A DNA stretch of 37,556 nt from Rhodospirillales bacterium (GTDB lineage Bacteria; Pseudomonadota; Alphaproteobacteria; BOG-932; Roseiterribacteraceae). Made by a program: the position numbers and the translations under genes. The notes beneath the pieces are model-generated. The model was given only the letters and a program-made list of their open reading frames with translations, made no database searches and was not told the DNA's origin. The number at the start of each line of letters is the position of its first letter. Position 1 is the first letter of the stretch. Below, piece after piece: positions 16,581-32,572 of this stretch. The DNA lies in assembly GCA_003165335.1 (NCBI GenBank), contig PLTD01000262.1, positions 1-37,556 of the forward strand, written 5' to 3'.

Positions 16581-19499
16581 ATGTCAGTTCGTTTTACAGC
16601 GGCGCTTTGCGCTTCGGCCGCGTTTGTCGGTTTGATTGGCGGCGCGCGCGTCGCAGTTGCCCAGTCCGATCAGCCTGCCGCTTCGGCCGGTAACGGTCTT
16701 GAGGAAGTTGTCGTTACCGCGCGTCGTCGCGAAGAAAAGATCCAGACAGTTCCGATCGCGATTACGGCCTTTACCCAGGCCGACATCGAGAAGAAGTCGA
16801 TCCATGAGATGCACGATCTGGAGCTATATGTTCCGTCGATCGGCTCAAGTTTGGCCCAGTCGGATTCGAACGGCGTATACTCTTCGCAGCTCCGTCTGCG
16901 CGGCCTCCCGGGTACTGAAATCTATTTGAATGACGTGCCGATCGGCAACGCCGACTTTCAGCCCGGCACCGGCATTCAGCACGGCCTATCCGAGGGATAT
17001 CTTTTCGACCTGGACGGTCTCGAAGTCGTCAAGGGTCCGCAGGGCACGTTGTTCGGCAAGAATTCAGTCGGTGGTCTGATCTCGATCAAGCCGAAGCACC
17101 CGACTAATGACTATGAAGGCTATGCCAAGGTCACTTTCGGCAATTACGGCGACAAGGAAATCGAGGCCGCCGTCAATGTTCCCGTGATCGATGACAAGCT
17201 GCTGGTCCGGATTGCCGGCCAGGGACAACAGCGCGACGGCTATACCCACGATGTCTATTCGGGCAAGGACCTGGATAACAAGAATTTCCAGGCGTGGCGC
17301 GTCACCGTCACGGCTCGTCCGACCGACGATATCGAGGACATCTTCACCTATGACGGCTATTGGCAGGATACCAATGGCTCATCGGAAATCGTTAAAGACG
17401 TCAATACGGGCTTTGCGCTGAGCAATCTGAAGACCGTCTTTGCTTCTTCGCCGGCGGCTCTAGGTGCATTATCCGCGTTCGGTGTTAACCCCGCGACCAC
17501 ACCGGTCACCACTGGCACAGGGCCCAGCATCACCGGTCTGTTCAGCGGTGCGACCTTTGTGTCGACGGCACTCGCGGCCGCGAAAGCCGGCGCCGTTTCG
17601 CTATACCCGAATTTGTCGGCCGACTTTGCCGCGCAGCAAGCTTTGGGCCCACGGTCAGAGCTTGGGAACAATTTTCAGGGTATCGGCAAGGACTATTTCT
17701 ACGGCCTCACCAACTCGACCAACTGGGACGTCAACGACAATCTGACAGTCAAGAACATCGCAGCCGCCAGAATCTTTAAGGAACTAGCGACGGTCGACTA
17801 TTCCCCAATCGGCGCTCCGCTTCTCAATATCGGTATTCCAGGCAACAATCAGGAATGGGGCGAGAATTCGGTTCAATATACCGAAGAGCTCCAGCTCCAG
17901 GGTAAAGCCTTACAGGATAAGCTTAGCTGGGTTTTGGGCGGCTTTCTCGAATTCGACGAGCCCCTCGGCAGCACGACCTTGGGTTCGGCGAATCTGGGCG
18001 ATACCATTTTCGGCGGCGTGACCTATAGCCACTTCAATACATCGGCGCGCAGCCAGGCCGCATTCGGAACCGCGACTTATGATCTCGACGATTATCTGTC
18101 AGGCCTGAAGCTGACGGGCGGTTATCGCTATACTTTCGACTTCTCAGAAGTCGAGGTTCAATCCGATACTGGTGTCGATCAAATCGAGCGCAACGCAAAT
18201 GGGACTCTGGCGAATTGCCCGTCCTTCAATCATGACAATAATTGCTTCCAGTCGCTCAGTCGGCATTTCAGCTCTCCGGGTTGGAACGTCAGCTTGGAAG
18301 AGCAGCTCGATCCGGACACCTTGCTCTATATTCGTTCGGGCAACGCCTACCATCCGGGCGGGTTCAATACTTCGGTACCGAACCAGTTTGCGTCTTTCGG
18401 TCCTGAGCATATTACCGACGTTGAAGCGGGCGCGAAGCTGACTTTCAAAGTCGATGATATTCAGTTCCGCACGAACTTCGATGCGTTCCACAGCGACTAT
18501 AAAGACATTCAGGTTCAAAGCTTGGTGTCATTCACCGACCCGAACGGCGGAAACCACACGAATTCGCTCTATCAGAACGCCGCGACCGCGACGATCAATG
18601 GCGGCGAATTCGAGGCGACCGTTCTGCCGTTCAAGGGCGTGGAAGTTAACGCACATGGATCGTACATCGATGCCAAATACGGTTCTTATCCAGCCGTGTT
18701 CGGTGGCGGAGCCGCATCGTCAGTCCCGTTCATGTATTTTCCGCGGATTTCCTGGGGTGCGTCGGCAACCTATCATCTACCGATTGACCTATCTTATGGC
18801 GACGTCGCCGTTACCGCGACCTGGTCGCATTATGGCCATCAGGTCGATTCGGTGTCGATCGGTGAGGCCTATCCGATCACGCCTGGCCACGACCTGCTGA
18901 ACCTGCGGATCGATTGGACCGATATCTTCGGCCAGCCGGTCGATGCCGGCTTCTTCATGAACAACGCCCTGGATACGACTTATGTCGCCGGTGCTATCCC
19001 GATCTATACGCAACTCGGCTTCACGTCGGTTTCTTATGGCGCGCCGCGGATGTTCGGCTTCTCGCTGAAATATCGCTTCACCGCCGGCGAAAGCACCAGC
19101 GCACCGGCATCGGCTTACACGCCTCCGGCGGCAGTTGCACCGGCGCCATCGGTTTCGAAGAGCTATCTGGTGTTCTTCGACTTCAACAAGTCGGATCTGA
19201 CGGCTGATGCGACGACCATCGTCGATCAGGCGGCAAAGAATGCCGGTCCGGCCAAGGTCACGCAACTGACCGTGACAGGCCACACCGATACGGTGGGCTC
19301 TGACGCCTACAATATGCGCCTCAGCCGCCGCCGTGCGGAATCGGTAGCGGCACAGCTCGAAAAGGACGGCATTCCGTCATCCGAGATCGAGATCGTGGCC
19401 AAAGGCAAGCGTGACCTGCTGGTCCCGACCAAGGACGGGGTGAAGGAGCCGCAGAACCGGCGCGTTCAGATCGTCTATGACAACGGGGCGACCTCGTAA
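16581..19499 (+). CDS. TonB-dependent receptor fused to an OmpA-like domain, copy 1
   Basis: This is an outer-membrane active transporter with an added peptidoglycan anchor, 972 aa. Signal peptide 1-28 (ends GARVAVAQ); TonB-box-like LEEVVVTARR at 40-49; plug with LRLRGLPGTEIYLNDVPIG and VKGPQGTLFGKNSVGGLISIKP; beta-barrel to about residue 833, ending in the aromatic strand MFGFSLKYRF. An Ala/Pro linker follows, and an OmpA-like domain fills 859-972. That domain keeps GHTDTVGSDAYNMRLSRRRA, with the Asp and the Arg 15 residues later that bind diaminopimelate in OmpA. A cysteine pair (NCPSF...NNCF) marks an outer loop. The ATG at 16581 follows GGGAG; an upstream TTG is less likely. It is the first of five tandem paralogues and has its own terminator. 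The ligand is unknown, and no TonB/ExbBD genes lie nearby. Confidence 0.93.
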   Translation: MSVRFTAALCASAAFVGLIGGARVAVAQSDQPAASAGNGLEEVVVTARRREEKIQTVPIAITAFTQADIEKKSIHEMHDLELYVPSIGSSLAQSDSNGVYSSQLRLRGLPGTEIYLNDVPIGNADFQPGTGIQHGLSEGYLFDLDGLEVVKGPQGTLFGKNSVGGLISIKPKHPTNDYEGYAKVTFGNYGDKEIEAAVNVPVIDDKLLVRIAGQGQQRDGYTHDVYSGKDLDNKNFQAWRVTVTARPTDDIEDIFTYDGYWQDTNGSSEIVKDVNTGFALSNLKTVFASSPAALGALSAFGVNPATTPVTTGTGPSITGLFSGATFVSTALAAAKAGAVSLYPNLSADFAAQQALGPRSELGNNFQGIGKDYFYGLTNSTNWDVNDNLTVKNIAAARIFKELATVDYSPIGAPLLNIGIPGNNQEWGENSVQYTEELQLQGKALQDKLSWVLGGFLEFDEPLGSTTLGSANLGDTIFGGVTYSHFNTSARSQAAFGTATYDLDDYLSGLKLTGGYRYTFDFSEVEVQSDTGVDQIERNANGTLANCPSFNHDNNCFQSLSRHFSSPGWNVSLEEQLDPDTLLYIRSGNAYHPGGFNTSVPNQFASFGPEHITDVEAGAKLTFKVDDIQFRTNFDAFHSDYKDIQVQSLVSFTDPNGGNHTNSLYQNAATATINGGEFEATVLPFKGVEVNAHGSYIDAKYGSYPAVFGGGAASSVPFMYFPRISWGASATYHLPIDLSYGDVAVTATWSHYGHQVDSVSIGEAYPITPGHDLLNLRIDWTDIFGQPVDAGFFMNNALDTTYVAGAIPIYTQLGFTSVSYGAPRMFGFSLKYRFTAGESTSAPASAYTPPAAVAPAPSVSKSYLVFFDFNKSDLTADATTIVDQAAKNAGPAKVTQLTVTGHTDTVGSDAYNMRLSRRRAESVAAQLEKDGIPSSEIEIVAKGKRDLLVPTKDGVKEPQNRRVQIVYDNGATS

Positions 19500-19522
19500 A
19501 AAGACCAATTAGACCAAAATCA

Positions 19523-19554
19523 GGCGGCGCTTCCCCGGAGGCGCCGCCTTTTTT
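19523..19554 (+). terminator. intrinsic terminator of receptor 1
   Basis: A GGCGGCGC / GCGCCGCC stem with a 10-base loop is followed by six T. It is nearly identical to the one after receptor 2. Confidence 0.9.
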
Positions 19555-19579
19555 ATGACCCAAATCCTGAACTAAGCCT

Positions 19580-20103
19580 CATGTATGTGCAGGGCGCAGA
19601 GCCGATCTACACGCAGCTCGGCTTCACATCGCTTAGCTATAATCCGCCGCAGATATTCGGCTTCAATGTGAAATACCGATTCAGCATGACTTCTTCGTCG
19701 GAAATGGCAACGGCGGCCTATAACCCCGCCGCCGGTCGTCGCACCCGCGCCTTCGGTGCCGAAGCGCTAATTGGTGTTCTTTGATTTCAACTAATCCAAC
19801 TTGACGCCGCAGGCGACGACGATCGTCGATCAAGCCGCGAAGAACGCCGGCCCGGCCAAAGTGACTGAGATTACAGTTACCGGTCATACCGATACGATGG
19901 GTTCGGACGCCTATAATATGCGTCTCTCCCGCCACCGCGCGGAATCGGTCGCGGCTCAATTGGAGAAGGACGGAATTCCCTCTAGCGAGATCGAGATTGT
20001 GGCCAAAGGCAAGCGCGATCTGCTCGTTCCGACCAAGGATGGGGTCAAGGAACCGCAGAATCGGCGTGTCCAGATCGTCTACGACAATGGGGCCACTTCC
20101 TAA
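19580..20103 (+). pseudogene. 3' remnant of a sixth TonB receptor-OmpA gene
   Basis: The segment encodes the last barrel strands (EPIYTQLGFTSLSYNPPQIFGFNVKYRF) and then the linker and OmpA module of the same family, but it is broken. A frameshift lies in the Ala/Pro linker near 19730. In the OmpA frame, two stops follow: the Tyr codon of the usual KSYLVFF is TAA, and the Lys codon of FDFNKSDLT is TAA. From 19801 to the stop at 20103 the OmpA module is open and almost unchanged (GHTDTMGSDAYNMRLSRHRA, Asp and Arg kept). Everything upstream (signal, plug, most of the barrel) is missing; the remnant begins right after the receptor 1 terminator. It has its own terminator, so it was once a full unit that lost its 5' part by deletion. 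Confidence 0.88.
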
Positions 20104-20140
20104 GGGGTCCGAACCCCTTACAACTGTTGCGAAATTATCA

Positions 20141-20178
20141 CGCGGCGCTTTTAGAAATAGAAGCGCCGCGTCCTTTTT
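20141..20178 (+). terminator. intrinsic terminator of the pseudogene unit
   Basis: CGCGGCGCTT pairs perfectly with AAGCGCCGCG across a 10-base loop, followed by TCCTTTTT. The preceding CTGTTGC motif and the AGAAAT loop segment are shared with the terminator of receptor 3, and in part with that of receptor 4. A second small hairpin (TAAGGGGT/ACCCCTTA, 20101-20120) begins at the stop codon itself. Confidence 0.85.
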
Positions 20179-20211
20179 GCCCAAAAACTGAATTATGAAT
20201 CACAATTCCTC

Positions 20212-20325
20212 TTGACGCAGATCGCCGTTCGCAAGAAAGGTGGCCGCGATTTCGGGGGCGTCTCTCTCTGTCGAGGGGCACTCAACAGTTTCCGAATTTC
20301 GCCTTAGAGCCCCAGTCAGCGGCTC
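20212..20325 (+). promoter_or_regulatory. upstream element and leader hairpin of receptor 2
   Basis: CTTGACGCAGAT (TTGACG at 20212-20217) is identical to the element ahead of receptor 3. A GAGCC/GGCTC hairpin (20307-20325) lies just before the ribosome site; receptor 1 has the same GAGCC/GGCTC pair at 16524-16547. A promoter role is inferred from conservation and position. Confidence 0.45.
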
Positions 20326-20342
20326 AGTCTTCGGGAGGAAAA

Positions 20343-23237
20343 ATGTCAACACGTTTCACTTTGGCGCTTTGCGCCACCGCGGCAATCGTCGGTCTTACCG
20401 GCGCACGCACCACGTTGGCTCAGTCGGACCAGCAGACGGCATCGGCCGGCGGCAACGGCCTGGAAGAGATCGTTGTTACGGCGCGCCGTAAAGAAGAACG
20501 TGTACAGTCGGTCCCGATCGCGATTACGGCGTTCAGCCAGGCGGATATCGAGAAAAACCATATTCAAGACGTTCAAGATCTAGCGCGCAACGTGCCGTCA
20601 TTGGCCGTCAGCAACAGCCAGTCGGACGCAAACGCACCATATTCCAGCCAGACCCGCCTGCGCGGACTGCCCGGGACGGTCATTTATTTCGCTGACGTTC
20701 CTTTGGGCGCAGCCGACTATGCGACCGGCACCGGTCTCACCCACGGATTGTCCTCCGGCTTTTATTACGATCTCGACAACCTCGAAGTTTTGAAGGGCCC
20801 GCAGGGCACCCTGTTCGGAAAGAATTCCATCGGTGGTTTGATCTCGATTGAACCAAAAAAGCCCACCAGCGACTTCGAGGGCTATGCCCAGGTCAAATTC
20901 GGTGACTATTCCGACCGTGAATTCGAAGGCGCGGTGAATATCCCGATTATCGCCGACAAACTGCTGGTCCGGATCGCCGGACAGTCACAGCAGCGTGACG
21001 GCTACACCAAGGATTATTACACCGGACAGGATTACGACAACCGGAATTATTATTCCTGGCGCATCGGCGTGACCTTCCGCCCGACCGACGATATCGAGAA
21101 CTATCTCGTTTATGACGGCTACTGGCAGGATACCAACGGGTCGTCGACGATCGCCCGGTACGTTAACCCCAATTTCGTCCTATCCGCGAAGGCATCGGCC
21201 GCTTCGCCCGCTCTGGGTTTTCTGAGCGCGTTCGGCCTGGGCAATGCGCCCATTACACTGGGCAACGGCCCTTCTCTGTCGGGATTGGCCACGAACTTCG
21301 GTGGGACGATCGCGGCCGCGCTGGCGGCGGGCCCGCAGGGCTCATTCTCCTTTTTCCCGAACATCCAGCAGGTCGTCGCCCAGCAGCAAGCGCTCGGCGT
21401 TCGTACTGAACTCGGCCACTCGGTTCAGGGCATCGGCAAAGACTATTTCTACGGCTTCACCGACACAGCCACGTGGGATATCAACGATAGCCTAACGGTA
21501 AAAAACATCGCCGCAGCGCGCGTATTTAAGCAATTGTCGACGACGGACGATTTCGGAGCCGGAAACCTGCCGGTTCTGAACATCGGTGTACCGGGCAACC
21601 AGCAGCAGTGGGGCGACAACTCCATTCAGTACACTGAGGAGCTCCAGCTTGAGGGCAAGGCGCTCAACGACAAGCTGTCATGGGTTCTGGGCGGCTACTT
21701 GGAATATGACGGGCCGATCGGCGACACGCTGCTGGGATCAACGGCGGTAGCCAACCCGGCTTTCTATCATTTCACCAACACCGCGCGCAGCCAGGCGGCG
21801 TTCGCCCACGGCATCTATGACCTGTCGGACTATGTCGAGGGTCTGCGGTTTACCGCCGGCTATCGCTACACCTGGGATCACATCACGGCCGAAGAACGCG
21901 GTACCAACGGCATCGACGGCGTGACGCGCAACGCCGACGGCACGCCGAACAACTGCTCGGCCGTGATCAATGTCGACAACAACTGCCATGTCTCCGCCGG
22001 CGGCGACTTCAGCTCCTTTGGCTGGAACGTCGGACTGGACGAGCAGTTGACCCCCAGTACCCTGGTCTACATCAGGTCGGGTAACGCCTATCGTCCCGGC
22101 GGTTTCAACCTGAACGTCGGCGCCAATGCCGAGAAGTTCCAGCCTGAACATGTAACCGACGTCGAAATCGGTACCAAGACGGATTGGGATTTGTACGGGC
22201 TTCATGCCCGCACCAACGCGGACATTTACCACACCGACTATAAGGACATTCAGGTTCAGGAACTGGTTTCGGTCGTCGATCCGGAAGGCAATACGCACGT
22301 CAATTCGGCCTATCAGAACGCCGCGGCCGCAACACTCGAAGGCGCAGAGTTGGAGGCGAGCTTCGTGCCCTTTACAGGCTTCGAACTCGAACCGCACGCT
22401 TCTTACATCTATGCACACTACGACAAGTACCCGCTCGGGTTCGGTACTCTGAACTCCGATCCGGCCTTCCAGTATCTGCCGAAATGGCAGTATGCCGTGA
22501 CGGCAACCTATCACCTGCCGATCGACGCATCTTTGGGCGATATTGCGCTCTCCGGTACTTATTCCTGGTATGGGCACCAATATCTGTCGGTCAATGCCGG
22601 CGAGATCTATCCGATCATGCCGTCCTACGAGAACGTCGACATCCAGGTCGACTGGAAAGACTTCCTGAGCTATCCGGTCGACCTCGGCTTCTCCATGACC
22701 AACGTGCAGAACAACGTCCATGTTGTCGGCGGCTTCCCGATCTATGCTCAGCTCGGCTTCACCTCGCTTGTCTACAACGCACCGCGGATGTTCGCCTTCT
22801 CGGCCAAATACCGCTTCGGCGGTCCGACTGAAACGGCAGAGCCCGCGACGGCCTATACGCCGCCGCCGGCCGTTGCACCGGCGCCTTCGGTTCCGAAGAG
22901 CTATCTGGTGTTCTTCGACTTCAACAAGTCTGATCTGACGGCAGATGCGACCACCATCGTCGATCAGGCCGCCAAGAACGCCGGTCCGGCAAAGGTCACC
23001 CAGCTGACCGTAACCGGTCACACCGATACTGTGGGCTCTGACGCCTACAATATGCGCCTCAGCCGCCGCCGTGCGGAATCGGTTGCAGCCCAACTCGAGA
23101 AGGACGGCATCGCGTCGTCCGAGATCGAGATCGTTGCCAAGGGCAAGCGCGACCTGCTGGTCCCGACCAAGGACGGGGTGAAGGAGCCCCAGAACCGGCG
23201 CGTTCAGATCGTCTATGGCAACGGGGCAACCTCGTAA
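20343..23237 (+). CDS. TonB-dependent receptor fused to an OmpA-like domain, copy 2
   Basis: 964 aa. Signal peptide 1-27 (ends ARTTLAQ), TonB-box-like GLEEIVVTARR, plug with TRLRGLPGTVIYFADVPLG and LKGPQGTLFGKNSIGGLISIEP, barrel ending MFAFSAKYRF, linker TAYTPPPAVAPAPSV, and OmpA-like domain 851-964 with GHTD and RRRA intact. Loop cysteines (NNCSAV...NNCH) match copies 1 and 3. The OmpA part differs from copy 1 by only a few residues (for example GIASSE for GIPSSE and a YGNGATS end), while the barrel is clearly divergent, suggesting a different or altered ligand. GGGAGG lies 8 bases before the ATG. It is monocistronic: an element at 20212 upstream and a terminator at 23262 downstream. It belongs to subfamily A with copies 1 and 3 by its plug (VPIAITAFSQADIEK). 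Confidence 0.93.
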   Translation: MSTRFTLALCATAAIVGLTGARTTLAQSDQQTASAGGNGLEEIVVTARRKEERVQSVPIAITAFSQADIEKNHIQDVQDLARNVPSLAVSNSQSDANAPYSSQTRLRGLPGTVIYFADVPLGAADYATGTGLTHGLSSGFYYDLDNLEVLKGPQGTLFGKNSIGGLISIEPKKPTSDFEGYAQVKFGDYSDREFEGAVNIPIIADKLLVRIAGQSQQRDGYTKDYYTGQDYDNRNYYSWRIGVTFRPTDDIENYLVYDGYWQDTNGSSTIARYVNPNFVLSAKASAASPALGFLSAFGLGNAPITLGNGPSLSGLATNFGGTIAAALAAGPQGSFSFFPNIQQVVAQQQALGVRTELGHSVQGIGKDYFYGFTDTATWDINDSLTVKNIAAARVFKQLSTTDDFGAGNLPVLNIGVPGNQQQWGDNSIQYTEELQLEGKALNDKLSWVLGGYLEYDGPIGDTLLGSTAVANPAFYHFTNTARSQAAFAHGIYDLSDYVEGLRFTAGYRYTWDHITAEERGTNGIDGVTRNADGTPNNCSAVINVDNNCHVSAGGDFSSFGWNVGLDEQLTPSTLVYIRSGNAYRPGGFNLNVGANAEKFQPEHVTDVEIGTKTDWDLYGLHARTNADIYHTDYKDIQVQELVSVVDPEGNTHVNSAYQNAAAATLEGAELEASFVPFTGFELEPHASYIYAHYDKYPLGFGTLNSDPAFQYLPKWQYAVTATYHLPIDASLGDIALSGTYSWYGHQYLSVNAGEIYPIMPSYENVDIQVDWKDFLSYPVDLGFSMTNVQNNVHVVGGFPIYAQLGFTSLVYNAPRMFAFSAKYRFGGPTETAEPATAYTPPPAVAPAPSVPKSYLVFFDFNKSDLTADATTIVDQAAKNAGPAKVTQLTVTGHTDTVGSDAYNMRLSRRRAESVAAQLEKDGIASSEIEIVAKGKRDLLVPTKDGVKEPQNRRVQIVYGNGATS

Positions 23238-23261
23238 AAGAAACCGATCAGACCAAAATCA

Positions 23262-23293
23262 GGCGGCGCTTCCCAGGAGGCGCCGCCTTTTTT
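23262..23293 (+). terminator. intrinsic terminator of receptor 2
   Basis: GGCGGCGC pairs with GCGCCGCC, followed by six T. The stretch from GACCAAAATCAGGCGGCGCTTCCC onward differs from the receptor 1 copy by a single loop base, so 3' flanks were duplicated along with the genes. Confidence 0.9.
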
Positions 23294-23330
23294 ATTAATC
23301 TAAAGAAGGGCGTACAAATCCGGTTAGTGC

Positions 23331-23370
23331 TTGACGCAGATTAAATTTGCCGTGAAGTTGCGCCCAATAG
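23331..23370 (+). promoter_or_regulatory. conserved upstream element of receptor 3
   Basis: TTGACG (23331-23336), then 17 bases, then GAAGTTGCGCCCAATAG. Receptors 4 and 5 have TTGACG, 18 or 19 bases, then GAAGTCGCACTCAATAG. Shared order and near-constant spacing mark a common promoter or regulator site. A hairpin with CCGCG/CGCGG arms (23435-23455) lies just before the ribosome site of this gene. Confidence 0.5.
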
Positions 23371-23471
23371 AGACGCCGGAGTCCTGAAGTGTTTGGGGAT
23401 TCTGCATTAAGCATCTCTTTTTGATGAATGACGGCCGCGCGGAATCAAGACGCGGACCTTTGGGAGGAATT

Positions 23472-26357
23472 ATGTCTGTACGAGTGAAAGCGGCGCTTTG
23501 CGCCACTGCGGCTATTGTCGGTCTCACGGGCGCACGCGTCACGCTGGCCCAATCGTCGGATCAGCCGGCGGCATCAGCCGGTTCGGGGCTCGAGGAAATC
23601 GTCGTCACGGCCCGCCGCCGCGAAGAGCGCGTACAGACCGTTCCGATCGCGATTACCGCGTTCAGCCAGGCGGATATCGAAAAGAAGCAGATCCACCAAA
23701 TCCGCGAACTGTCTCAGAATGTTCCGTCGCTCAGCATGGCCCAGTCTCAGTCGGATACCAACGGGCTCTATTCCGGGCAGTTGCGCTTGCGCGGTTTGCC
23801 CGGCACCGAAATCTATTTCGACGACGTTCCCATCGGCAATGCAGACATACAGGCCGGAACCGGCATTACGCATGGCCTATCCGAAGGCTTTCTGTACGAC
23901 CTCGACGATGTTGAAGTCGTCAAAGGCCCGCAGGGGACTTTGTTCGGAAAGAATTCGGTCGGCGGCCTGATCTCGATCAAGCCGAAAAAGCCGACCGACG
24001 ACTATGAGGGATATTTGCGGGTCGCATTCGGCAATTACAGCGACAAGGAAGTCGAAGGCGCGGTCAATATTCCGGTCATCCAGGATAAATTGCTTGTCCG
24101 CTTCGCCGGGCAAATGCAGCAGCGCGACGGCTATACGAAAGACGTCGCCAATGGCCAAGACCTGGACAACAAGAATTTCTATGCCTGGCGCGCCAGTGTG
24201 ACCCTGCGGCCGACCGACGATATTGAAAACGACTTCGTCTATGACGGCTATTGGCAGGACACGAACGGTTCGGGCGAGCTGGTAAAATATTATAATCCGG
24301 CGAATGCCTTAGCGACAGGCGCAGCGCTTGGTCTGCCGGCGCCTTTGGCTTCGCTTCCGATCACGCTCGGCGTCGGCCCGAATCTGACCGGCCTGTTCAA
24401 TCCTGCCACCGCTGTCCCGACGGCGATCGCGGCTTTGGGCGCCGGCGGTTTTTCGCTCTACCCCGGCAGCGCGGCCGTGGCGGCGGAACAGCAGGCGCTA
24501 GGTCCGCGTCAGGATGTCGGCAGCAGCATCCAGGGTATCGGCAAGGATTACTTCTACGGCCTGACCGATACGGCTACCTGGAATATCGACGATAACCTGA
24601 CGCTGAAAAACATCGCCGCCGCCCGAATCTTCAAGCAGTTGGCGACCGCGGACTTCGCGCCGCTCGGCTTTCCGCTGCTCAATATCGGCGTACCCGGCAA
24701 CCAGCAGCAGTGGGGCGACAATTCGGTTCAATACACCGAGGAAATTCAGCTTCAGGGCAAGTCGCTTAGCGATAAGCTGACCTGGGTCACCGGCGGGTAC
24801 CTCGAATTCGATCACCCGTTGGGCGACACGCTGCTCGGCTCCGCCGCCCTCGGCGATACGCCGTTCGGCACAGTGGGCTACTACCACTTCAATATTCAGA
24901 CGCGCAGCGAGGCCCTGTTCGCGCATGGCACCTACGACCTCAGCGACTATGTCGAGGGGCTCAGCTTCACCGGCGGATACCGCTACACATGGGACTATGC
25001 ATCGACCGGTTCGCGCAGCACCAATGGTACGGACAGTGTCACTCGCAACCCGGACGGCTCGCCGGCCAATTGCGGCGGCACCTTCGCATTCGACAATAAT
25101 TGCTACCAATCGGTGAGTGGGCATTTCAGCTCGCCGGGCTGGAACGTCAGTCTGGAAGAGCTGTTAGACCCGGATACGCTGCTCTATGTGCGTGCGGGGA
25201 ATGCCTACCGGCCGGGCGCCTTCAACCTCAATGTTCCTGCCCAATACGCGAAGGTTCAGCCGGAACACGACACCGATGTCGAAATCGGCGTGAAGAAGGA
25301 TTGGGACTTGTGGGGCATGCATGCGCGGACGAACGCGGACATCTTCCATACCACCTATAAGTCGATCCAGGTTACGCAGACGGTTCCGATCCAACAGGGG
25401 AACGTTATCAAGGAGAACTCGATCAACGAGAACGCGGCCAGCGCCACGCTGGAAGGCGGTGAGCTTGAGGCCACTTTCCTGCCATACAAGGGCGTCGAGA
25501 TTTCACCGCATGCTTCGTACCTCCATGCGAGTTACGGCCAGTATCCAACGGCATTCGGCGCGATTTCGGCCGGTACGAACACGCCGTTCAACTTCACTCC
25601 GAAATGGCAGTACGGGATCACCGGCACCTACCATCTGCCGATCGACGAGTCGCTGGGCGATATCGCGCTGTCGGCGACCTATTCCTGGTACGGACATCAA
25701 TATAATACCCAGCTATTGGGTGATATTTATCCGATTCAGCCGTCATACGAAAATATCGATGCCCGGATCGATTGGACGAATTTCCTCAGCTATCCGGTCG
25801 ATCTCGGCTTTTTCATGACGAACGTGCAGAACAATGTGCATGTGATCGGGGCCACAACGCTTTACACGAATCTGGGCTTTGACTCGGTAGCGTATAATCC
25901 GCCTCGTATGTTCGGCTTGTCGGCTAAATATCGGTTTAGCGCCGGGTCTCAAACCAGCGAGGCCGCGTCCACCTACGTTCCGCCGCCGGCGGTCGCTTCG
26001 GCTCCGGCCGTACCGAAGAGCTATCTGGTGTTTTTCGATTTCAACAAGTCGGATCTGACGCCTGATGCGACGACCATCGTCGATCAGGCCGCCAAGAACG
26101 CAGGCCCGGCCAAGGTGACCCAGCTGACCGTAACCGGTCATACCGATACGGTTGGCTCGGATGCCTACAATATGCGCCTCAGCCGCCGACGTGCGGAATC
26201 GGTTGCGGCTCAATTGGAAAAGGACGGCATCCCCTCCAGCGAGATCGAGATCGTGGCCAAGGGCAAGCGCGACCTGCTGGTCCCGACCAAGGACGGGGTG
26301 AAGGAACCCCAGAACCGGCGTGTCCAGATCGTCTACGACAACGGGGCGACCTCATAA
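23472..26357 (+). CDS. TonB-dependent receptor fused to an OmpA-like domain, copy 3
   Basis: 961 aa. Signal peptide 1-28 or so (ends VTLAQ), TonB-box-like GLEEIVVTARRREE, plug with LRLRGLPGTEIYFDDVPIG and VKGPQGTLFGKNSVGGLISIKP, barrel ending MFGLSAKYRF, linker STYVPPPAVASAPAV, OmpA-like domain 848-961 with all binding residues. The plug is closest to copy 1 (KPKKPTDDYEGY against KPKHPTNDYEGY), while middle loops such as LGLPAPLASLPITLGVGPNLTG are its own. Loop cysteines are ANCGGTF...NNCY. The start at 23472 has GGGAGG and fits the other copies; an ATG 51 bp upstream lacks a ribosome site. Its last 130 bases of matched coding sequence (26191-26320) are identical to copy 4 although the receptor parts are in different subfamilies. 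Confidence 0.93.
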   Translation: MSVRVKAALCATAAIVGLTGARVTLAQSSDQPAASAGSGLEEIVVTARRREERVQTVPIAITAFSQADIEKKQIHQIRELSQNVPSLSMAQSQSDTNGLYSGQLRLRGLPGTEIYFDDVPIGNADIQAGTGITHGLSEGFLYDLDDVEVVKGPQGTLFGKNSVGGLISIKPKKPTDDYEGYLRVAFGNYSDKEVEGAVNIPVIQDKLLVRFAGQMQQRDGYTKDVANGQDLDNKNFYAWRASVTLRPTDDIENDFVYDGYWQDTNGSGELVKYYNPANALATGAALGLPAPLASLPITLGVGPNLTGLFNPATAVPTAIAALGAGGFSLYPGSAAVAAEQQALGPRQDVGSSIQGIGKDYFYGLTDTATWNIDDNLTLKNIAAARIFKQLATADFAPLGFPLLNIGVPGNQQQWGDNSVQYTEEIQLQGKSLSDKLTWVTGGYLEFDHPLGDTLLGSAALGDTPFGTVGYYHFNIQTRSEALFAHGTYDLSDYVEGLSFTGGYRYTWDYASTGSRSTNGTDSVTRNPDGSPANCGGTFAFDNNCYQSVSGHFSSPGWNVSLEELLDPDTLLYVRAGNAYRPGAFNLNVPAQYAKVQPEHDTDVEIGVKKDWDLWGMHARTNADIFHTTYKSIQVTQTVPIQQGNVIKENSINENAASATLEGGELEATFLPYKGVEISPHASYLHASYGQYPTAFGAISAGTNTPFNFTPKWQYGITGTYHLPIDESLGDIALSATYSWYGHQYNTQLLGDIYPIQPSYENIDARIDWTNFLSYPVDLGFFMTNVQNNVHVIGATTLYTNLGFDSVAYNPPRMFGLSAKYRFSAGSQTSEAASTYVPPPAVASAPAVPKSYLVFFDFNKSDLTPDATTIVDQAAKNAGPAKVTQLTVTGHTDTVGSDAYNMRLSRRRAESVAAQLEKDGIPSSEIEIVAKGKRDLLVPTKDGVKEPQNRRVQIVYDNGATS

Positions 26358-26391
26358 TATTATAACCACACACTGTTGCTGCAATATAACG

Positions 26392-26424
26392 CGGCGCCTC
26401 CAGAAATGGAGGCGCCGTTTGTTT
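26392..26424 (+). terminator. intrinsic terminator of receptor 3
   Basis: CGGCGCCTCC pairs perfectly with GGAGGCGCCG (loop AGAAAT), followed by TTTGTTT. The same form recurs after receptor 4. Confidence 0.88.
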
Positions 26425-26459
26425 GAGCGGCTGAATCCCGTGCTGAATCGCGATTATGC

Positions 26460-26585
26460 TTGACGTAACGCGCATTTTCACTTGAAGTCGCACTCAATAG
26501 CCGAGCCTGAGCATGGAAATGTCCCATGATTAAAGGGGTTCGGCACCGGGGCGGATACAGAGCGCGCAATGCAGCTCTGGTTTTT
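26460..26585 (+). promoter_or_regulatory. promoter element and structured leader of receptor 4
   Basis: TTGACG (26460-26465), 18 bases, GAAGTCGCACTCAATAG, then a leader that can fold. CCGAGCC (26501-26507) pairs with GGTTCGG (26537-26543, one G-U) around an inner CATGG/CCATG hairpin. AGAGC pairs with GCTCT (26559-26578), followed by GG and TTTTT directly ahead of the ribosome site, a terminator-like form. The same layout with different bases precedes receptor 5. Confidence 0.5.
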
Positions 26586-26597
26586 AAGGGGGAAAAT

Positions 26598-29432
26598 ATG
26601 TCGTCACGTATTACGTTGGCACTGTGCGCCTCTGTCGCGATTGTCGGGCTTACCGGCGCGCATACCACGTTGGCGCAGTCATCGGACCAATCGACTACAG
26701 CCGCCAGCTCAGGTCCGGGCATCGAAGAAGTGGTCGTGACGGCCCGACGCCGTGAAGAAAAGGCGCAGTCGGTTCCGATTACGCTGCTGACCTTTACGCC
26801 CGAAGCGCTGCAGAAGCAGGATATTCGTGACTCGCTGACACTGACGGACTCGATTCCGGGACTGAACGGCGCCACGGGTGCGTCGCTGGGCCTGACCTAT
26901 ACGTTCCTGCGTGGCGCACCGGGCGTCGTTGCCTATTGGAACCAGGTGCCGATCAACATCAACAACCAGGACCAGGGGTTTTACTTCGACCTCGCCAATA
27001 TCCAGGTGCTGTACGGCCCTCAGGGAACGCTATTCGGTCTCAGCAACGACGCCGGCGCGCTGTTGTTCGAGCCACAGCATCCGAAGAATGATTTCGAGGG
27101 CTATGGCCAGGTTACGTTCGGCGATTACGGCCGCGAGACGATCGAGGGCGTGGTCAACGTGCCGGTTGTCGAAGATAAGCTGTTGGTGCGCATCGGCGGT
27201 CAGTATCAGAAGCAGGACGGCTATCAGCATGTCATTCAGCAAAATCTCGATTTGCTGAATCAGAATTATTGGAATTTCCGGGGTTCGGCGACCTTCTCCC
27301 CGACGGATAATCTCAATAATGAATTGATGATCAATTATTTCGATACGCAGTATCTGCCTGGTGCTTTCACCTATGGTGGGGCCAATCCGGCCGCCCCGGC
27401 GGCATTCCCGCTTCCGCTGCAGAGTATTCTGAACTATGCCCAGATGGGGTACATCAATGCTCCCTATGGTTCGAACCAACTCGCGGGCAAGGATATCAAC
27501 CTAACCCAGCTTTACGCGCAGCAGCAAGCACTTGGCCCATACCACATCCAATCGTTGTCGCTAATTCCGACGGCGGTATTGAAGCAGTTGAACATCGTCG
27601 ATACCGCATCCTGGGATATCAACGATAACATCACATTGAAAAACATTGCCGGCTATCAAGAGATATACAACTTCGTACGGGCGGATATCGCCGGATTGGG
27701 CTTCGGCCTTTTGAGTGCTCCGACGCCGATCCAAAGCACGCCCTCGGGCCCGACCGTTCAATATAACGAAGAAGTGCAAGTACTCGGCAATTTCTTCGAC
27801 GGCAAGATGAACTTCGTCGCTGGCATTTTCAACCAATTGGGCGGCGCCAGCCAGGGCGGCGTGGCCGACACGCGCGCACCTTACGGGATCGTTTACACCT
27901 GCGACTTTGGCTGCGTGTCGCTCTCTGGGCTGCAACAGACGCAGGTATCCAACACGCACGCGGTCTATACGCAGACAACCTACAACCTGAGCGATTATGT
28001 CGAAGGGCTGAGCTTTACGGGTGGCTTCCGCTTCACTTGGGATAAATTCTACACCCAAGAGAACAGCTACGGCCCGACCGGTTTGCTTCTCCCAACGACT
28101 TGTCTAAACGCAGCGAAGCAGATTGTTTCGGCGGGGTGTGCCTCCTCGCAAGATGCACGTTTCCGGTCGCCAAGCTATTCGTTGCAGCTCAACTATCAGG
28201 TACTGCCGCAGACGATGGTCTACGTAAACAACAGCCTTGGATATAAGACAGGCGGTTTTAACGGCCAGAATTTCATCGCATTCCAGATATACAAGCCCGA
28301 GCACCTGAACAATTACGAAGCCGGCGTGAAATCGGACTTCGATCTTGGTGCGATCGGGCTGGACAGCGTCAAGGTGCGGACCGACGCCAGCTTATACTAC
28401 GGCGTCTATCGTGGTATCGAGATTCAGACGACCGGCGCCTATGCGACTGTGGCGGGACCTTTGTCCTTGGGAACGCCCTATCTCGATGTCGGTGACGGCG
28501 ACCTTTACGGTTGGGATTTCCAATTCACCGTGCTTCCGTTCCCCGACCTCGAAATCCATGGCGACGCCGAATACAACAAGGGCAAATACAAGAACTTCCA
28601 GGGTCCCAATGCGGCTGGTACCGGCCAAGTTTCAGTACCTGGCGTCGCGTTTGAAATCCTACCCGAATATAAATTTAACGGAGGAGCCACCTACCACTTC
28701 TCGTTCCTCGACAAATCCTACGGCGACGTCAGCTTGACGGGCACCTATTCCTGGGTTCAGCACTCGGTCAATACCGATGTCGCCAATGTCACTTACTATG
28801 ACCTTCTGGCGGGTCACCACAACATCGATATGAGCCTCGACTGGAAAGACATCTTGGGGCACACGGGGCTTAGCGCTCGGGCATTTGTGACCAATTTGAC
28901 GAATAACTCCGTCGTCAATGGTTGCCTATGCGCCTACTACGCTGTCGGCGAAATCGGCTATCAGCCGGCGCAACCGCGCATGGGTGGCTTTACCCTGCGC
29001 TATGAGTTCGGTCCCGACTCGTTCGGCGGTTCGACACAGGCAGCGGCCTACACGCCGCCGCCCGCGGTCGCTCCGGCGCCTTCGGTCTCGAAGAGCTATC
29101 TGGTGTTCTTCGACTTCAATAAGTCGGACCTGACGGCTGATGCAACGACCATCGTCGACCAAGCCGCCAAGAATGCCGGTCCGGCCAAAGTCACCCAACT
29201 GACCGTAACCGGTCACACCGATACTGTCGGTTCGGACGCCTACAATATGCGTCTCAGCCGCCGCCGTGCGGAATCGGTTGCGGCTCAATTGGAAAAGGAC
29301 GGCATCCCCTCCAGCGAGATCGAGATCGTGGCCAAGGGCAAGCGCGACCTGCTGGTCCCGACCAAGGACGGGGTGAAGGAACCCCAGAACCGGCGCGTCC
29401 AGATCGTCTATGACAACGGGGCGACCTCGTGA
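26598..29432 (+). CDS. TonB-dependent receptor fused to an OmpA-like domain, copy 4 (subfamily B)
   Basis: 944 aa. Signal peptide to about residue 28 (GAHTTLAQSS), TonB-box-like GIEEVVVTARRREE, then a plug unlike copies 1-3: VPITLLTFTPEALQKQDI, YTFLRGAPGVVAYWNQVPIN and VLYGPQGTLFGLSNDAGALLFEP, where the usual GGLISI strand is replaced. The barrel runs to MGGFTLRYEF, with cysteine pairs YTCDFGC and TTCLNAAKQIVSAGC. The linker is AAAYTPPPAVAPAPSV, and the OmpA-like domain spans 831-944 with GHTD and RRRA. Receptor region and flanks are close to copy 5 (long shared runs such as GWDFQFTVLPFPDLEIHGDA), so this pair arose by a recent duplication. The ATG at 26598 follows AAGGGGG; the in-frame ATG at 26526 lies inside the folded leader. 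Confidence 0.93.
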   Translation: MSSRITLALCASVAIVGLTGAHTTLAQSSDQSTTAASSGPGIEEVVVTARRREEKAQSVPITLLTFTPEALQKQDIRDSLTLTDSIPGLNGATGASLGLTYTFLRGAPGVVAYWNQVPININNQDQGFYFDLANIQVLYGPQGTLFGLSNDAGALLFEPQHPKNDFEGYGQVTFGDYGRETIEGVVNVPVVEDKLLVRIGGQYQKQDGYQHVIQQNLDLLNQNYWNFRGSATFSPTDNLNNELMINYFDTQYLPGAFTYGGANPAAPAAFPLPLQSILNYAQMGYINAPYGSNQLAGKDINLTQLYAQQQALGPYHIQSLSLIPTAVLKQLNIVDTASWDINDNITLKNIAGYQEIYNFVRADIAGLGFGLLSAPTPIQSTPSGPTVQYNEEVQVLGNFFDGKMNFVAGIFNQLGGASQGGVADTRAPYGIVYTCDFGCVSLSGLQQTQVSNTHAVYTQTTYNLSDYVEGLSFTGGFRFTWDKFYTQENSYGPTGLLLPTTCLNAAKQIVSAGCASSQDARFRSPSYSLQLNYQVLPQTMVYVNNSLGYKTGGFNGQNFIAFQIYKPEHLNNYEAGVKSDFDLGAIGLDSVKVRTDASLYYGVYRGIEIQTTGAYATVAGPLSLGTPYLDVGDGDLYGWDFQFTVLPFPDLEIHGDAEYNKGKYKNFQGPNAAGTGQVSVPGVAFEILPEYKFNGGATYHFSFLDKSYGDVSLTGTYSWVQHSVNTDVANVTYYDLLAGHHNIDMSLDWKDILGHTGLSARAFVTNLTNNSVVNGCLCAYYAVGEIGYQPAQPRMGGFTLRYEFGPDSFGGSTQAAAYTPPPAVAPAPSVSKSYLVFFDFNKSDLTADATTIVDQAAKNAGPAKVTQLTVTGHTDTVGSDAYNMRLSRRRAESVAAQLEKDGIPSSEIEIVAKGKRDLLVPTKDGVKEPQNRRVQIVYDNGATS

Positions 29433-29473
29433 GCACACTCCAAACTAGCTAAAACTGTTGCTAAAATAACACG

Positions 29474-29506
29474 CGGCGTCTCCGGAAATGGAGGCGCCGT
29501 TTGTTT
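29474..29506 (+). terminator. intrinsic terminator of receptor 4
   Basis: CGGCGTCTCC pairs with GGAGGCGCCG (one G-U pair, loop GGAAAT), followed by TTTGTTT. An ACTGTTGC motif precedes it as in receptor 3 and the pseudogene. Confidence 0.87.
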
Positions 29507-29541
29507 GAACGGCTGAGCGGCACGCTTAAGCTCAATAATGC

Positions 29542-29670
29542 TTGACGGGATCCCTGTTTTCCAATTGAAGTCGCACTCAATAGCCGAACCCGTTCAACGG
29601 GATGTGTCCCGCGCGTAATGCGGTTCGGCAAACGGGGCGGATACAGGGCGCGCAAGGCGCTCTAATTTTT
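29542..29670 (+). promoter_or_regulatory. promoter element and structured leader of receptor 5
   Basis: TTGACG (29542-29547), 19 bases, GAAGTCGCACTCAATAG. The leader pairs CCGAACC (29584-29590) with GGTTCGG (29622-29628) around CGGGA/TCCCG. AGGGCGC (29645-29651) pairs with GCGCTCT (29657-29663), followed by AA and TTTTT, then the ribosome site. Pairing is kept relative to receptor 4 although several bases differ. Confidence 0.5.
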
Positions 29671-29682
29671 AACGGGGGAAAT

Positions 29683-32514
29683 ATGTCAGCACGTTTGACT
29701 TTGGCGCTGTGCGCGTCGGCTGCGATTGTCGGGCTTACCGGTGCGCATACCACGATGGCTCAGTCATCGGACCAATCGACCACAGCCGCCAGCTCAGGTG
29801 CTGGCATCGAAGAAGTGATCGTGACAGCCCGACGCCGTGAAGAAAAAGCGCAGACCGTTCCGATTACGTTGCTGACCTTCACACCCGAGACGCTGCAGAA
29901 GCAGGATATTCGCGACTCGCTGACATTGACGGACTCCATTCCGGGCTTCAACGGGTCCACCGGTGCCTCACTCGGCCTGACCTATACGTTCCTGCGCGGT
30001 GCGCCAGGCGTCGTCGCCTACTGGAACCAGGTGCCCATCAATATCAATAACCAGGCCCAGGGATTCTATTTCGACCTTGCCAATATTCAGGTGCTGTATG
30101 GCCCGCAGGGAACTCTGTTCGGTCTCAGTAACGATGCCGGTGCTCTGTTGTTCGAGCCTCAGCATCCCAAGAACGATTTCGAGGGCTACGGTCAGGTTAC
30201 CCTTGGCGACTACGGTCGCGAGACGATCGAAGGCGTAGTTAATGTGCCGGTCGTCGAGGACAAATTGCTGGTCCGCATCGGCGGTCAGTACCAGAAGCAG
30301 GACGGCTATCAGCACGTCATTCAGCAAAATCTTAATTTGTTGAATCAGAATTATTGGAATTTCCGTGGATCCGCGACTTTTACACCGACGGATAACATCA
30401 ATAACGAAGTAATGCTCAATTACTTCGATACACAGTATCTTCCCGGTGCCTTCACCTACAACCATGCAAATCCGGCCGCGTCACAAGCGATCGGCATTCC
30501 GCTGCAATCACTTTTGACCTACGCGCAGTTGGGCTACATCAACCCGTTCGCGACAGCGCAGCTTGCGGGAAAAGACATCAACCTGACCCAGCTTGCGGCT
30601 CAGCAGAGGGCGATTGGTCCAGATCAGGTCGAGTCCGTTTCTCTCATACCGACCGCGATACTGAAGCAGCTGAATATAGTCGATACCGCTTCATGGGATA
30701 TCACCGACAATATCACCCTGAAAAATATTGCCGGTTATGAGGAAATCTCCAGTTACACGAGGGCGGATATTGGCGGTTTGGGTTTCGGTCTGCTGGCAGG
30801 GCCACAGGACGGCCTGCTCGATCAGCCGCGGGGACCGGCGACACAATATAACGAAGAAATCCAGGTCCAGGCCAACTTCTTCGACAACAAGTTCAAGCTC
30901 ACGACTGGCTTCTTCAACCAGTGGGGTGGTGCGAACAGCGGTGCGGGTGGAAGCTCTCCTTCGAATACACATTCGCCATACGGCATCCAATATACCGATG
31001 ATTTTGGCGGTGTATCGATCTCAGGTGCGACTTCGACCCAACAAGCAACCACACACGCCGTCTATACGCAGGGCACTTACGACATTGGCGACTATGTCGA
31101 AGGGCTGAGCTTCACGGGTGGCTTCCGCTATTCGTGGGATAGTTTCTATACAGCCGGCGGCAGCTATTGCGTCACTTCGTGCCCAGCTGGCGACCCGATC
31201 AATACGTTGACCGCCTTCACTTCGCAGCATGCACGCTTCCGGTCGCCCAGCTATACGTTGCAGCTCAACTATCAAATACTACCGGAGACGATGATCTATA
31301 TTAATAACAGCCTCGGCTATAAAACTGGCGGCTTCAACGGCCAGAACTTCGTCGATTCCAATATCGAGATCTATAAGCCCGAGCACCTGAACAACTATGA
31401 AGCCGGCATCAAGTCCGACTTCGACCTCGGTGCGATCGGTATGGAGAGCGTCAAGGCTCGGATCGATGCCAGCGTGTTCTACGGCGTCTATCGCGGCATC
31501 GAAATTCAGACTACCGGCGCCTATGAAGGCCTTAACGGCGTGAAGAATCTGGGCACGCCCTTTCTCGACGTCGGCGATGGCGACCTTTACGGTTGGGATT
31601 TCCAATTCACCGTGCTGCCGTTCCCCGACCTAGAAATCCATGGCGATGCCGAGTACAACAAAGGCAAATACAAAAACTTCCAGGGTCCGAACGCAGCCGG
31701 CACCGGACAGATGTCCGTACCAGGCGTCGCGTTTGAAATTCTGCCCGAATATAAGGCCAACGGTGCCGCGACGTATCACTTCTCCTTCATTGACAAGTCA
31801 TATGGCGATGTCAGCCTGACCGGAAGTTATTCCTGGGTACAGCACTCGATCAGCAGCGATGTCGCTGATATTACGCCCGAAGATATCCTTCCAGGCCACC
31901 ACACGATCGACATGAGCCTCGATTGGAAAGATGTTTTGGGTCATACAGGACTTAGCGCACGGGCCTTCGTGACCAACCTGAATAATAATTCAGTGGTCAA
32001 CGGCGCCCTGGCCGCCTATGCCGCCATTGGCGAGATAGGCTTCCAGCCAGCGCAACCGCGCATGGGCGGCTTTACCCTGCGCTATGAATTCGGACCGGAT
32101 TCGTTCGGTGGGTCGACTCAGGCAGCCGCCTATGTGCCGCCGCCAGCAGTTGCACCGGCGCCATCGGTTTCGAAGAGCTATCTGGTGTTCTTCGACTTCA
32201 ACAAGTCTGATCTGACGCCCCAAGCGTCATCTATCGTCGATCAGGCGGCGAAGAATGCCGGCCCGGCAAAGGTTACTCAGCTGACTGTCACGGGACACAC
32301 CGATACGGTCGGCTCGGACGCCTACAACATGCGACTCTCCCGCCGCCGTGCGGAATCGGTTGCGGCCCAACTCGAGAAGGACGGCATCCCTTCGTCGGAG
32401 ATCGAGATCGTGGCCAAGGGCAAGCGCGACCTGCTGGTACCGACGGCCGACGGTGTTAAGGAGCCGCAGAACCGGCGCGTCCAGATCGTCTATGACGGCG
32501 GCGCGGCCTCATAA
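29683..32514 (+). CDS. TonB-dependent receptor fused to an OmpA-like domain, copy 5 (subfamily B)
   Basis: 943 aa. Signal peptide ends near GAHTTMAQSS, TonB-box-like GIEEVIVTARRREE, and plug and barrel closely follow copy 4 (RGAPGVVAYWNQVPININNQ, VLYGPQGTLFGLSNDAGALL). Middle loops differ: FNQWGGANSGAGGSSPSN and GGSYCVTSCPAG, the latter with its own cysteine pair. The barrel ends MGGFTLRYEF, then linker AAAYVPPPAVAPAPSV and OmpA-like domain 830-943. This OmpA copy is the most changed in the tail (LTPQASSIV, VPTADGVKEPQ, YDGGAAS), but Asp and Arg for peptidoglycan are kept. It starts at the ATG at 29683 after GGGGGAA. It is the last unit of the array and converges with the TetR gene. Variation in loops between copies 4 and 5 points to altered ligand range; the ligands are unknown. 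Confidence 0.93.
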   Translation: MSARLTLALCASAAIVGLTGAHTTMAQSSDQSTTAASSGAGIEEVIVTARRREEKAQTVPITLLTFTPETLQKQDIRDSLTLTDSIPGFNGSTGASLGLTYTFLRGAPGVVAYWNQVPININNQAQGFYFDLANIQVLYGPQGTLFGLSNDAGALLFEPQHPKNDFEGYGQVTLGDYGRETIEGVVNVPVVEDKLLVRIGGQYQKQDGYQHVIQQNLNLLNQNYWNFRGSATFTPTDNINNEVMLNYFDTQYLPGAFTYNHANPAASQAIGIPLQSLLTYAQLGYINPFATAQLAGKDINLTQLAAQQRAIGPDQVESVSLIPTAILKQLNIVDTASWDITDNITLKNIAGYEEISSYTRADIGGLGFGLLAGPQDGLLDQPRGPATQYNEEIQVQANFFDNKFKLTTGFFNQWGGANSGAGGSSPSNTHSPYGIQYTDDFGGVSISGATSTQQATTHAVYTQGTYDIGDYVEGLSFTGGFRYSWDSFYTAGGSYCVTSCPAGDPINTLTAFTSQHARFRSPSYTLQLNYQILPETMIYINNSLGYKTGGFNGQNFVDSNIEIYKPEHLNNYEAGIKSDFDLGAIGMESVKARIDASVFYGVYRGIEIQTTGAYEGLNGVKNLGTPFLDVGDGDLYGWDFQFTVLPFPDLEIHGDAEYNKGKYKNFQGPNAAGTGQMSVPGVAFEILPEYKANGAATYHFSFIDKSYGDVSLTGSYSWVQHSISSDVADITPEDILPGHHTIDMSLDWKDVLGHTGLSARAFVTNLNNNSVVNGALAAYAAIGEIGFQPAQPRMGGFTLRYEFGPDSFGGSTQAAAYVPPPAVAPAPSVSKSYLVFFDFNKSDLTPQASSIVDQAAKNAGPAKVTQLTVTGHTDTVGSDAYNMRLSRRRAESVAAQLEKDGIPSSEIEIVAKGKRDLLVPTADGVKEPQNRRVQIVYDGGAAS

Positions 32515-32535: not shown

Positions 32536-32572
32536 AAACGGCGCTTCTTTCGGGGAAGCGCCGTTTCTTTTT
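32536..32572 (+). terminator. intrinsic terminator of receptor 5
   Basis: AAACGGCGCTTC pairs perfectly with GAAGCGCCGTTT across a 7-base loop, followed by CTTTTT. It ends the array. Confidence 0.9.

Follow-up and report, generated by a model that had tools for sequence, protein, structure and literature searches.

The window, i.e. the whole stretch of 37556 nucleotides that was analysed (contig PLTD01000262.1), contained five uninterrupted open reading frames (ORFs), each encoding a TonB-dependent receptor (TBDR) continued by a C-terminal OmpA-like domain, and located where a preliminary description of this DNA had placed them (Table 1). All five proteins showed a signal-peptide-like N-terminus, a TonB-box-like segment, (L/I)EE(V/I)(V/I)VTA, recognized by eye at residue 40-42, and matches above the Pfam gathering cut-off to both Plug (PF07715) and OmpA (PF00691), in agreement with the plug and OmpA domain described before. 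The OmpA scores were about 71-73 bits (cut-off 27.2), and the plug scores of genes 4 and 5 were barely over the cut-off (24.0 and 24.6 vs 23.9); PF00593 was matched in other fused receptors of the genome, not in these five. In each protein an aromatic last strand was followed by an Ala/Pro linker of 27-28 residues and a tail of 112 residues (the module), in which the reported Asp and Arg, 15 residues apart, were present. The last-strand motifs given previously did not cover genes 2 and 3, which read FAFSAKYRF and FGLSAKYRF.

Table 1. Features of the fusion array (positions in the window; gene starts are the likely ones) and module-bearing genes of other barrel classes (locus:positions).
Feature	Position	Strand	Details
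TBDR-OmpA gene 1	16581..19499	+	972 aa; plug 16740-17075; last barrel strand 19053-19079
Gene 1, C-terminal part	linker 19080-19160; OmpA module 19161-19496	+	Asp903, Arg918
Terminator-like hairpin, 3' of gene 1	19522..19549	+	consensus scan only
Sixth-copy 3' remnant, degenerate	~19560-20103	+	between genes 1 and 2; last barrel strand kept
Terminator-like hairpin, 3' of remnant	20140-20171		consensus scan only
TBDR-OmpA gene 2	20343..23237	+	964 aa; plug 20502-20837; last strand 22791-22817
Gene 2 OmpA module	22899-23234	+	Asp895, Arg910
TBDR-OmpA gene 3	23472..26357	+	961 aa; plug 23631-23966; last strand 25911-25937
Gene 3 OmpA module	26019-26354	+	Asp892, Arg907
TBDR-OmpA gene 4	26598..29432	+	944 aa; plug match weak, 26763-27053; last strand 28983-29009
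Gene 4 OmpA module	29094-29429	+	Asp875, Arg890
TBDR-OmpA gene 5	29683..32514	+	943 aa from ATG 29683; plug 29848-30138; last strand 32065-32091
Gene 5 OmpA module	32176-32511	+	Asp874, Arg889
Further terminator-like hairpins	23261-23288, 26391-26418, 29473-29500, 32536-32566		consensus scan only
Autotransporter beta-domain then OmpA module	L103:4583-7318	-	orthologue L029 in RYN_452
PagL lipid A deacylase-OmpA module fusions	L106:3974-4867; L167:2904-3821	-	two genomes
BBP2 porins with N-terminal module	L107:1672-3354; L108:1075-3072		reverse of the order in TBDR fusions

Between genes 1 and 2 a degenerate sixth copy, overlooked when the array was described as having five members, was detected; its linker was frameshifted, and its OmpA module, about 90% identical to that of gene 1, contained two TAA stops. 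This remnant suggests that the array formerly had at least six members, or that one was lost through recombination. Since a terminator-like hairpin followed every copy, the array looks like a set of separate transcription units and not one operon.

The protein encoded by gene 3 was modelled with AlphaFold at full length (26-row, shallow alignment). The plug and the 22-strand barrel closed around it were confident (barrel pLDDT mostly 80-95) and the barrel part had its best match in FyuA (PDB 4EPA, TM 0.85 on target). The last strand comprised residues 813-823 and the barrel was closed before residue 826, with residues 826-961 outside it, which confirmed that the barrel ends before the linker and ruled out a tail lying inside it; in this shallow-alignment model the tail pLDDT was under 50. 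Modelled alone (41 diverse rows), the tail adopted an OmpA-like fold with a mean pLDDT of 76.8, matching Pal, OprF, OmpA, RmpM and the complex of the Acinetobacter baumannii OmpA domain with a stem peptide (3TD5); its sequence profile also matched RmpM (1R1M). No PDB chain matching both the barrel and the OmpA parts was found in a PDB sequence search, and for ten fusion proteins nothing among the NCBIfam matches listed was over the cut-off. The Asp and Arg were exactly 15 residues apart in all 67 modules readable with a GHTD/GYTD motif and both were invariant in a 35-row alignment, and the linker measured 22-30 residues (median 27) in 52 fusions whose bodies share only about 25% identity. Taking the fold and these residues together, the module is predicted to bind the diaminopimelate stems of peptidoglycan.

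The genome of the window (5.19 Mb, 265 contigs) represents a genus known here from metagenome-assembled genomes (MAGs) only. It yielded 31 module matches, and the number of close copies that are intact was about 26. When plug matches were joined to module matches and the loci read, the tail was found on 21 of the 45 plug-bearing TBDRs, including one frameshift-split gene and another truncated where its contig stops; it was lacking at the other 24 loci. With the module on so many TBDRs across the genome, the tandem array is not central to the architecture. In one TBDR-OmpA gene (L097:2732-5598) an apparent frameshift was located near the middle and the module was intact. Three contigs (L053, L085 and L153) ended within a module, probably because near-identical copies break short-read assembly, so the true copy number may be higher. 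At locus L095 tailed and untailed paralogues adjoined, the untailed one being 61% identical to its fused neighbour; L144 lacked the tail, whereas BOG L016, 56% identical to it, was tailed. Judging from these comparisons, the tail is gained or lost between relatives.

The module was not restricted to TBDRs but occurred on five classes of barrel, at one terminus or the other. It was C-terminal on an autotransporter beta-domain protein (PF03797), on PagL (PF09411) and on a classic OmpA (L105), and N-terminal on two BBP2 porins (PF07642). An autotransporter barrel is normally the C-terminal end of its protein. The topology of these barrel families is established knowledge and was the basis for the placement of the tail, which is predicted to lie always at the periplasmic end of each barrel class.

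This distribution bears on the proposed purpose of bracing the receptor against TonB force. In a fuller form of this idea, attachment to the wall would let TonB pull on the plug without dragging the whole barrel along, and ExbD would close the force loop through peptidoglycan. Most tails were indeed on TBDRs (21 of the 26 intact modules), and ExbD is reported to bind peptidoglycan (Zinke et al. 2024, as cited in the review PMC11658791). However, the same tail was present on autotransporter, PagL, BBP2 and OmpA barrels, which TonB does not pull, 24 of the 45 TBDRs lacked it, including the adjacent paralogue at L095, and well-studied TBDRs function without a tail. The proposal is thereby weakened and bracing against TonB is, as the main purpose, improbable. 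The genome encoded two TonB-like proteins, one adjoining an ExbD-like ORF. An ORF of 396 aa (L162; G000:C42:8454-9224) contained three tandem TonB_C domains, with no obvious transmembrane anchor besides a signal-like N-terminus.

To describe the distribution of the fusions, the order was sampled by one family with five genomes, three of the genus and two of a sister genus. The three genomes of the genus had 13-39 module matches each and the same architecture was found in both congeners of the window's genome. RYN_452, of the same genus, had counterparts of the autotransporter (L029), PagL (L167, 75% identical to L106 over 298 aa) and OmpA (L045) proteins, and a protein with an N-terminal module that is BBP2-like by position (L048). 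Each of the two sister-genus genomes had one TBDR fusion, plus classic OmpA proteins. A frameshift or an assembly join as the source of the fusion was ruled out by the orthologous fusions in both further MAGs of this genus, together with the single-ORF fusions in the sister genus, one of whose genomes is a 3-contig assembly; the OmpA part therefore belongs to the same gene, as had been described.

When 284 further alphaproteobacterial genomes were searched, the top module matches fell in ORFs of about 300-480 aa, the ordinary size of OmpA. A profile of the last strands, linker and module, searched against 398 Pseudomonadota genomes, gave no TBDR fusion outside the family among the matches listed, and shallow sampling of about 640 Pseudomonadota genomes outside the two genera yielded none; these surveys scored 7-15 candidates per genome and listed the best rows, so rare or divergent fusions could be missed. 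Long candidate ORFs in three genomes (G131, G246 and G425) were read and were not TBDRs. Two long alphaproteobacterial frames with an OmpA-like domain at the end were also recorded (L133 in G246, 2066 aa; G403:C1:390226, 1510 aa). A contig binned in an 'Acidobacteria' MAG encoded a TBDR-OmpA fusion of 1018 aa (L039:3286-6339), with a module 81% identical to the window's, which may reflect misbinning or transfer. Outside the family, the module was most closely related to classic OmpA proteins from genera such as Telmatospirillum and Magnetospirillum, and thus the simplest reading is that the module was derived from a resident OmpA.

The modules and the receptor bodies showed different histories. 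In the window, protein identity among the bodies was 35-81% and among the modules 91-100%, with a sharp jump at the linker. In a set of 54 fusions from three genomes, median identity within the window's genome was about 26% for bodies and 92% for modules, and at fourfold-degenerate sites the modules were 60% alike versus 42% for the bodies. When orthologs of the window's genome and RYN_452 were paired, their modules were 80-93% identical at protein level, mostly under the within-genome median for paralogues. The module DNA tree required 8 changes of genome label, the body tree 26. For 6 of 10 pairs, orthologous sisterhood of the modules was rejected (p<0.05), though only two of these rejections survive Bonferroni correction; the modules of L098/L028, L099/L022 and L103/L029 behaved like orthologues. 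As far as these comparisons tell, the tails group by genome and the receptor bodies by orthology, a pattern attributable to gene conversion or to repeated copying of the cassette. Constraint at protein level alone was ruled out, since paralogues resembled each other more than most orthologues did at fourfold-degenerate sites too, and since orthologous sisterhood was rejected for the six module pairs.

Concerted evolution of this strength could also be the whole explanation, with the tail being a repeated 3' cassette that gene conversion has spread and that persists although it has no specific function. The decayed remnant, which still holds a 90% similar module, and the ortholog-like pair L144 and BOG L016, which differs in the tail, point in that direction. 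Against it, the binding residues and the linker length were strictly kept, the terminus carrying the tail follows topology, and the module was present on about 26 genes in G000 and on a similar number in G001, with frames that stay open. A mere by-product of recombination is accordingly very unlikely.

Considering these data, the tails probably act as a general, non-covalent anchor between the outer membrane and peptidoglycan, carried by receptors and by other barrels. An anchor of general use is preferred over a TonB-specific purpose because the tail occurs on barrels not subject to pulling by TonB and is missing from about half of the TBDRs; bracing against TonB is possible as a side effect. 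According to this proposal, a cassette formed by the Pro/Ala linker and the OmpA-like domain would have been copied onto many unrelated barrels, mostly TBDRs. Once the barrel is inserted by BAM, the tail would hang in the periplasm and bind, non-covalently, the meso-diaminopimelate stems of the wall, and each nutrient receptor would also become a small, reversible tether between outer membrane and wall; gene conversion would keep the tails alike. The tether idea of the preliminary description thus holds, detached from the tandem arrangement. In favour of the anchor, the tail is on whichever terminus is predicted to be periplasmic, and Lpp was not detected in the window's genome by family search, with Pal present. 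On the other hand, half of the TBDRs are untailed and the full-length model of the tail was unconfident. The same genome encodes Pal, five YkuD transpeptidases and a classic OmpA, hence has other tethers; a requirement for some 25 additional ones is not accounted for by the anchor and counts against it.

A related possibility is that the tail gathers receptors into clusters or fixes their place at the wall and helps complexes to meet TonB, the role that RmpM has, acting in trans, for the Neisseria receptors LbpA, TbpA and FrpB. RmpM forms complexes with TBDRs and its loss lowers iron-dependent growth (Prinz and Tommassen 2000, as cited in PMC8497027), and the tail matches RmpM in profile and fold. 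Yet the immobility of Escherichia coli OmpA is independent of its peptidoglycan domain, and OmpA without this domain is not laterally more mobile (PMC3637615), which leaves the earlier suggestion of fixing the receptor's position weak; the tails on enzymes and porins are also left unexplained. Positioning as the main role is thus considered unlikely.

If the general anchor is correct, this lineage attaches its outer membrane via uptake receptors and other barrels, not by one abundant tether such as Lpp, and the uptake machinery of the genus probably also helps to hold the outer membrane on the wall. A wider proposal is put forward tentatively, with somewhat less than even confidence: a 'common tail' outer membrane, in which one cassette homogenised by gene conversion is placed at the wall-facing end of most barrel classes of the genus, so that the wall would be mechanically coupled to uptake, to surface display and to the remodelling of lipid A, and the TonB force loop would be closed via peptidoglycan. 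The genes would in addition provide a portable anchor of about 140 residues, natural fusions for asking whether a wall-tied receptor aids or hinders TonB transport, and a clear example of concerted evolution confined to one domain, among otherwise unrelated bacterial genes.

Among known systems, wall tethering by barrels has been described, both non-covalent (OmpA, OmpM) and covalent (PMC12729407), and the novelty claimed previously is limited to that extent; no description of a TBDR-OmpA fusion was found in the open-licence literature. The anchor would best be read as comparable in action to OmpM, or to an RmpM joined to the receptor. OmpM, which occurs in Veillonella and further diderm Terrabacteria, is a nutrient channel doubling as wall tether (PMC10628300); it likewise combines uptake barrel and tether in one polypeptide, with several paralogues per genome, but it is a passive trimeric porin with an N-terminal SLH-type domain on a coiled-coil stalk and a polyaminated wall as partner, whereas the receptors studied here are predicted to be TonB-gated and their tail is OmpA-like and C-terminal. 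RmpM of Neisseria, a free OmpA-domain protein that forms complexes with TBDRs and with porins (PMC8497027; PDB 1R1M), also links an OmpA-like peptidoglycan-binding domain to TBDRs, although as one separate protein in trans; here the link is made in cis, in one ORF, for about half of all TBDRs. OmpA and OprF share the order of barrel, Pro/Ala linker and C-terminal peptidoglycan-binding domain, and the module is nearest to related alphaproteobacterial classic OmpA, but their barrel is small and 8-stranded, in contrast to a 22-strand plugged TBDR, an autotransporter or PagL. The barrels linked by LD-transpeptidases in Brucella, Agrobacterium and Coxiella, bacteria without Lpp that include alphaproteobacteria (review PMC12729407), similarly employ several different outer-membrane barrels as tethers; these are attached covalently via terminal residues (Gly-Gly, Asp-Ala or Lys motif), whereas a folded, non-covalent domain is predicted here. 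FyuA, Fiu, FhuA and other siderophore TBDRs have the same plug and 22-strand barrel but stop at the last barrel strand, with no OmpA part. Compared with all of them, the present system is most unusual in how many receptors take part, in having one module on barrels of unrelated classes, and in the homogenisation of that module.
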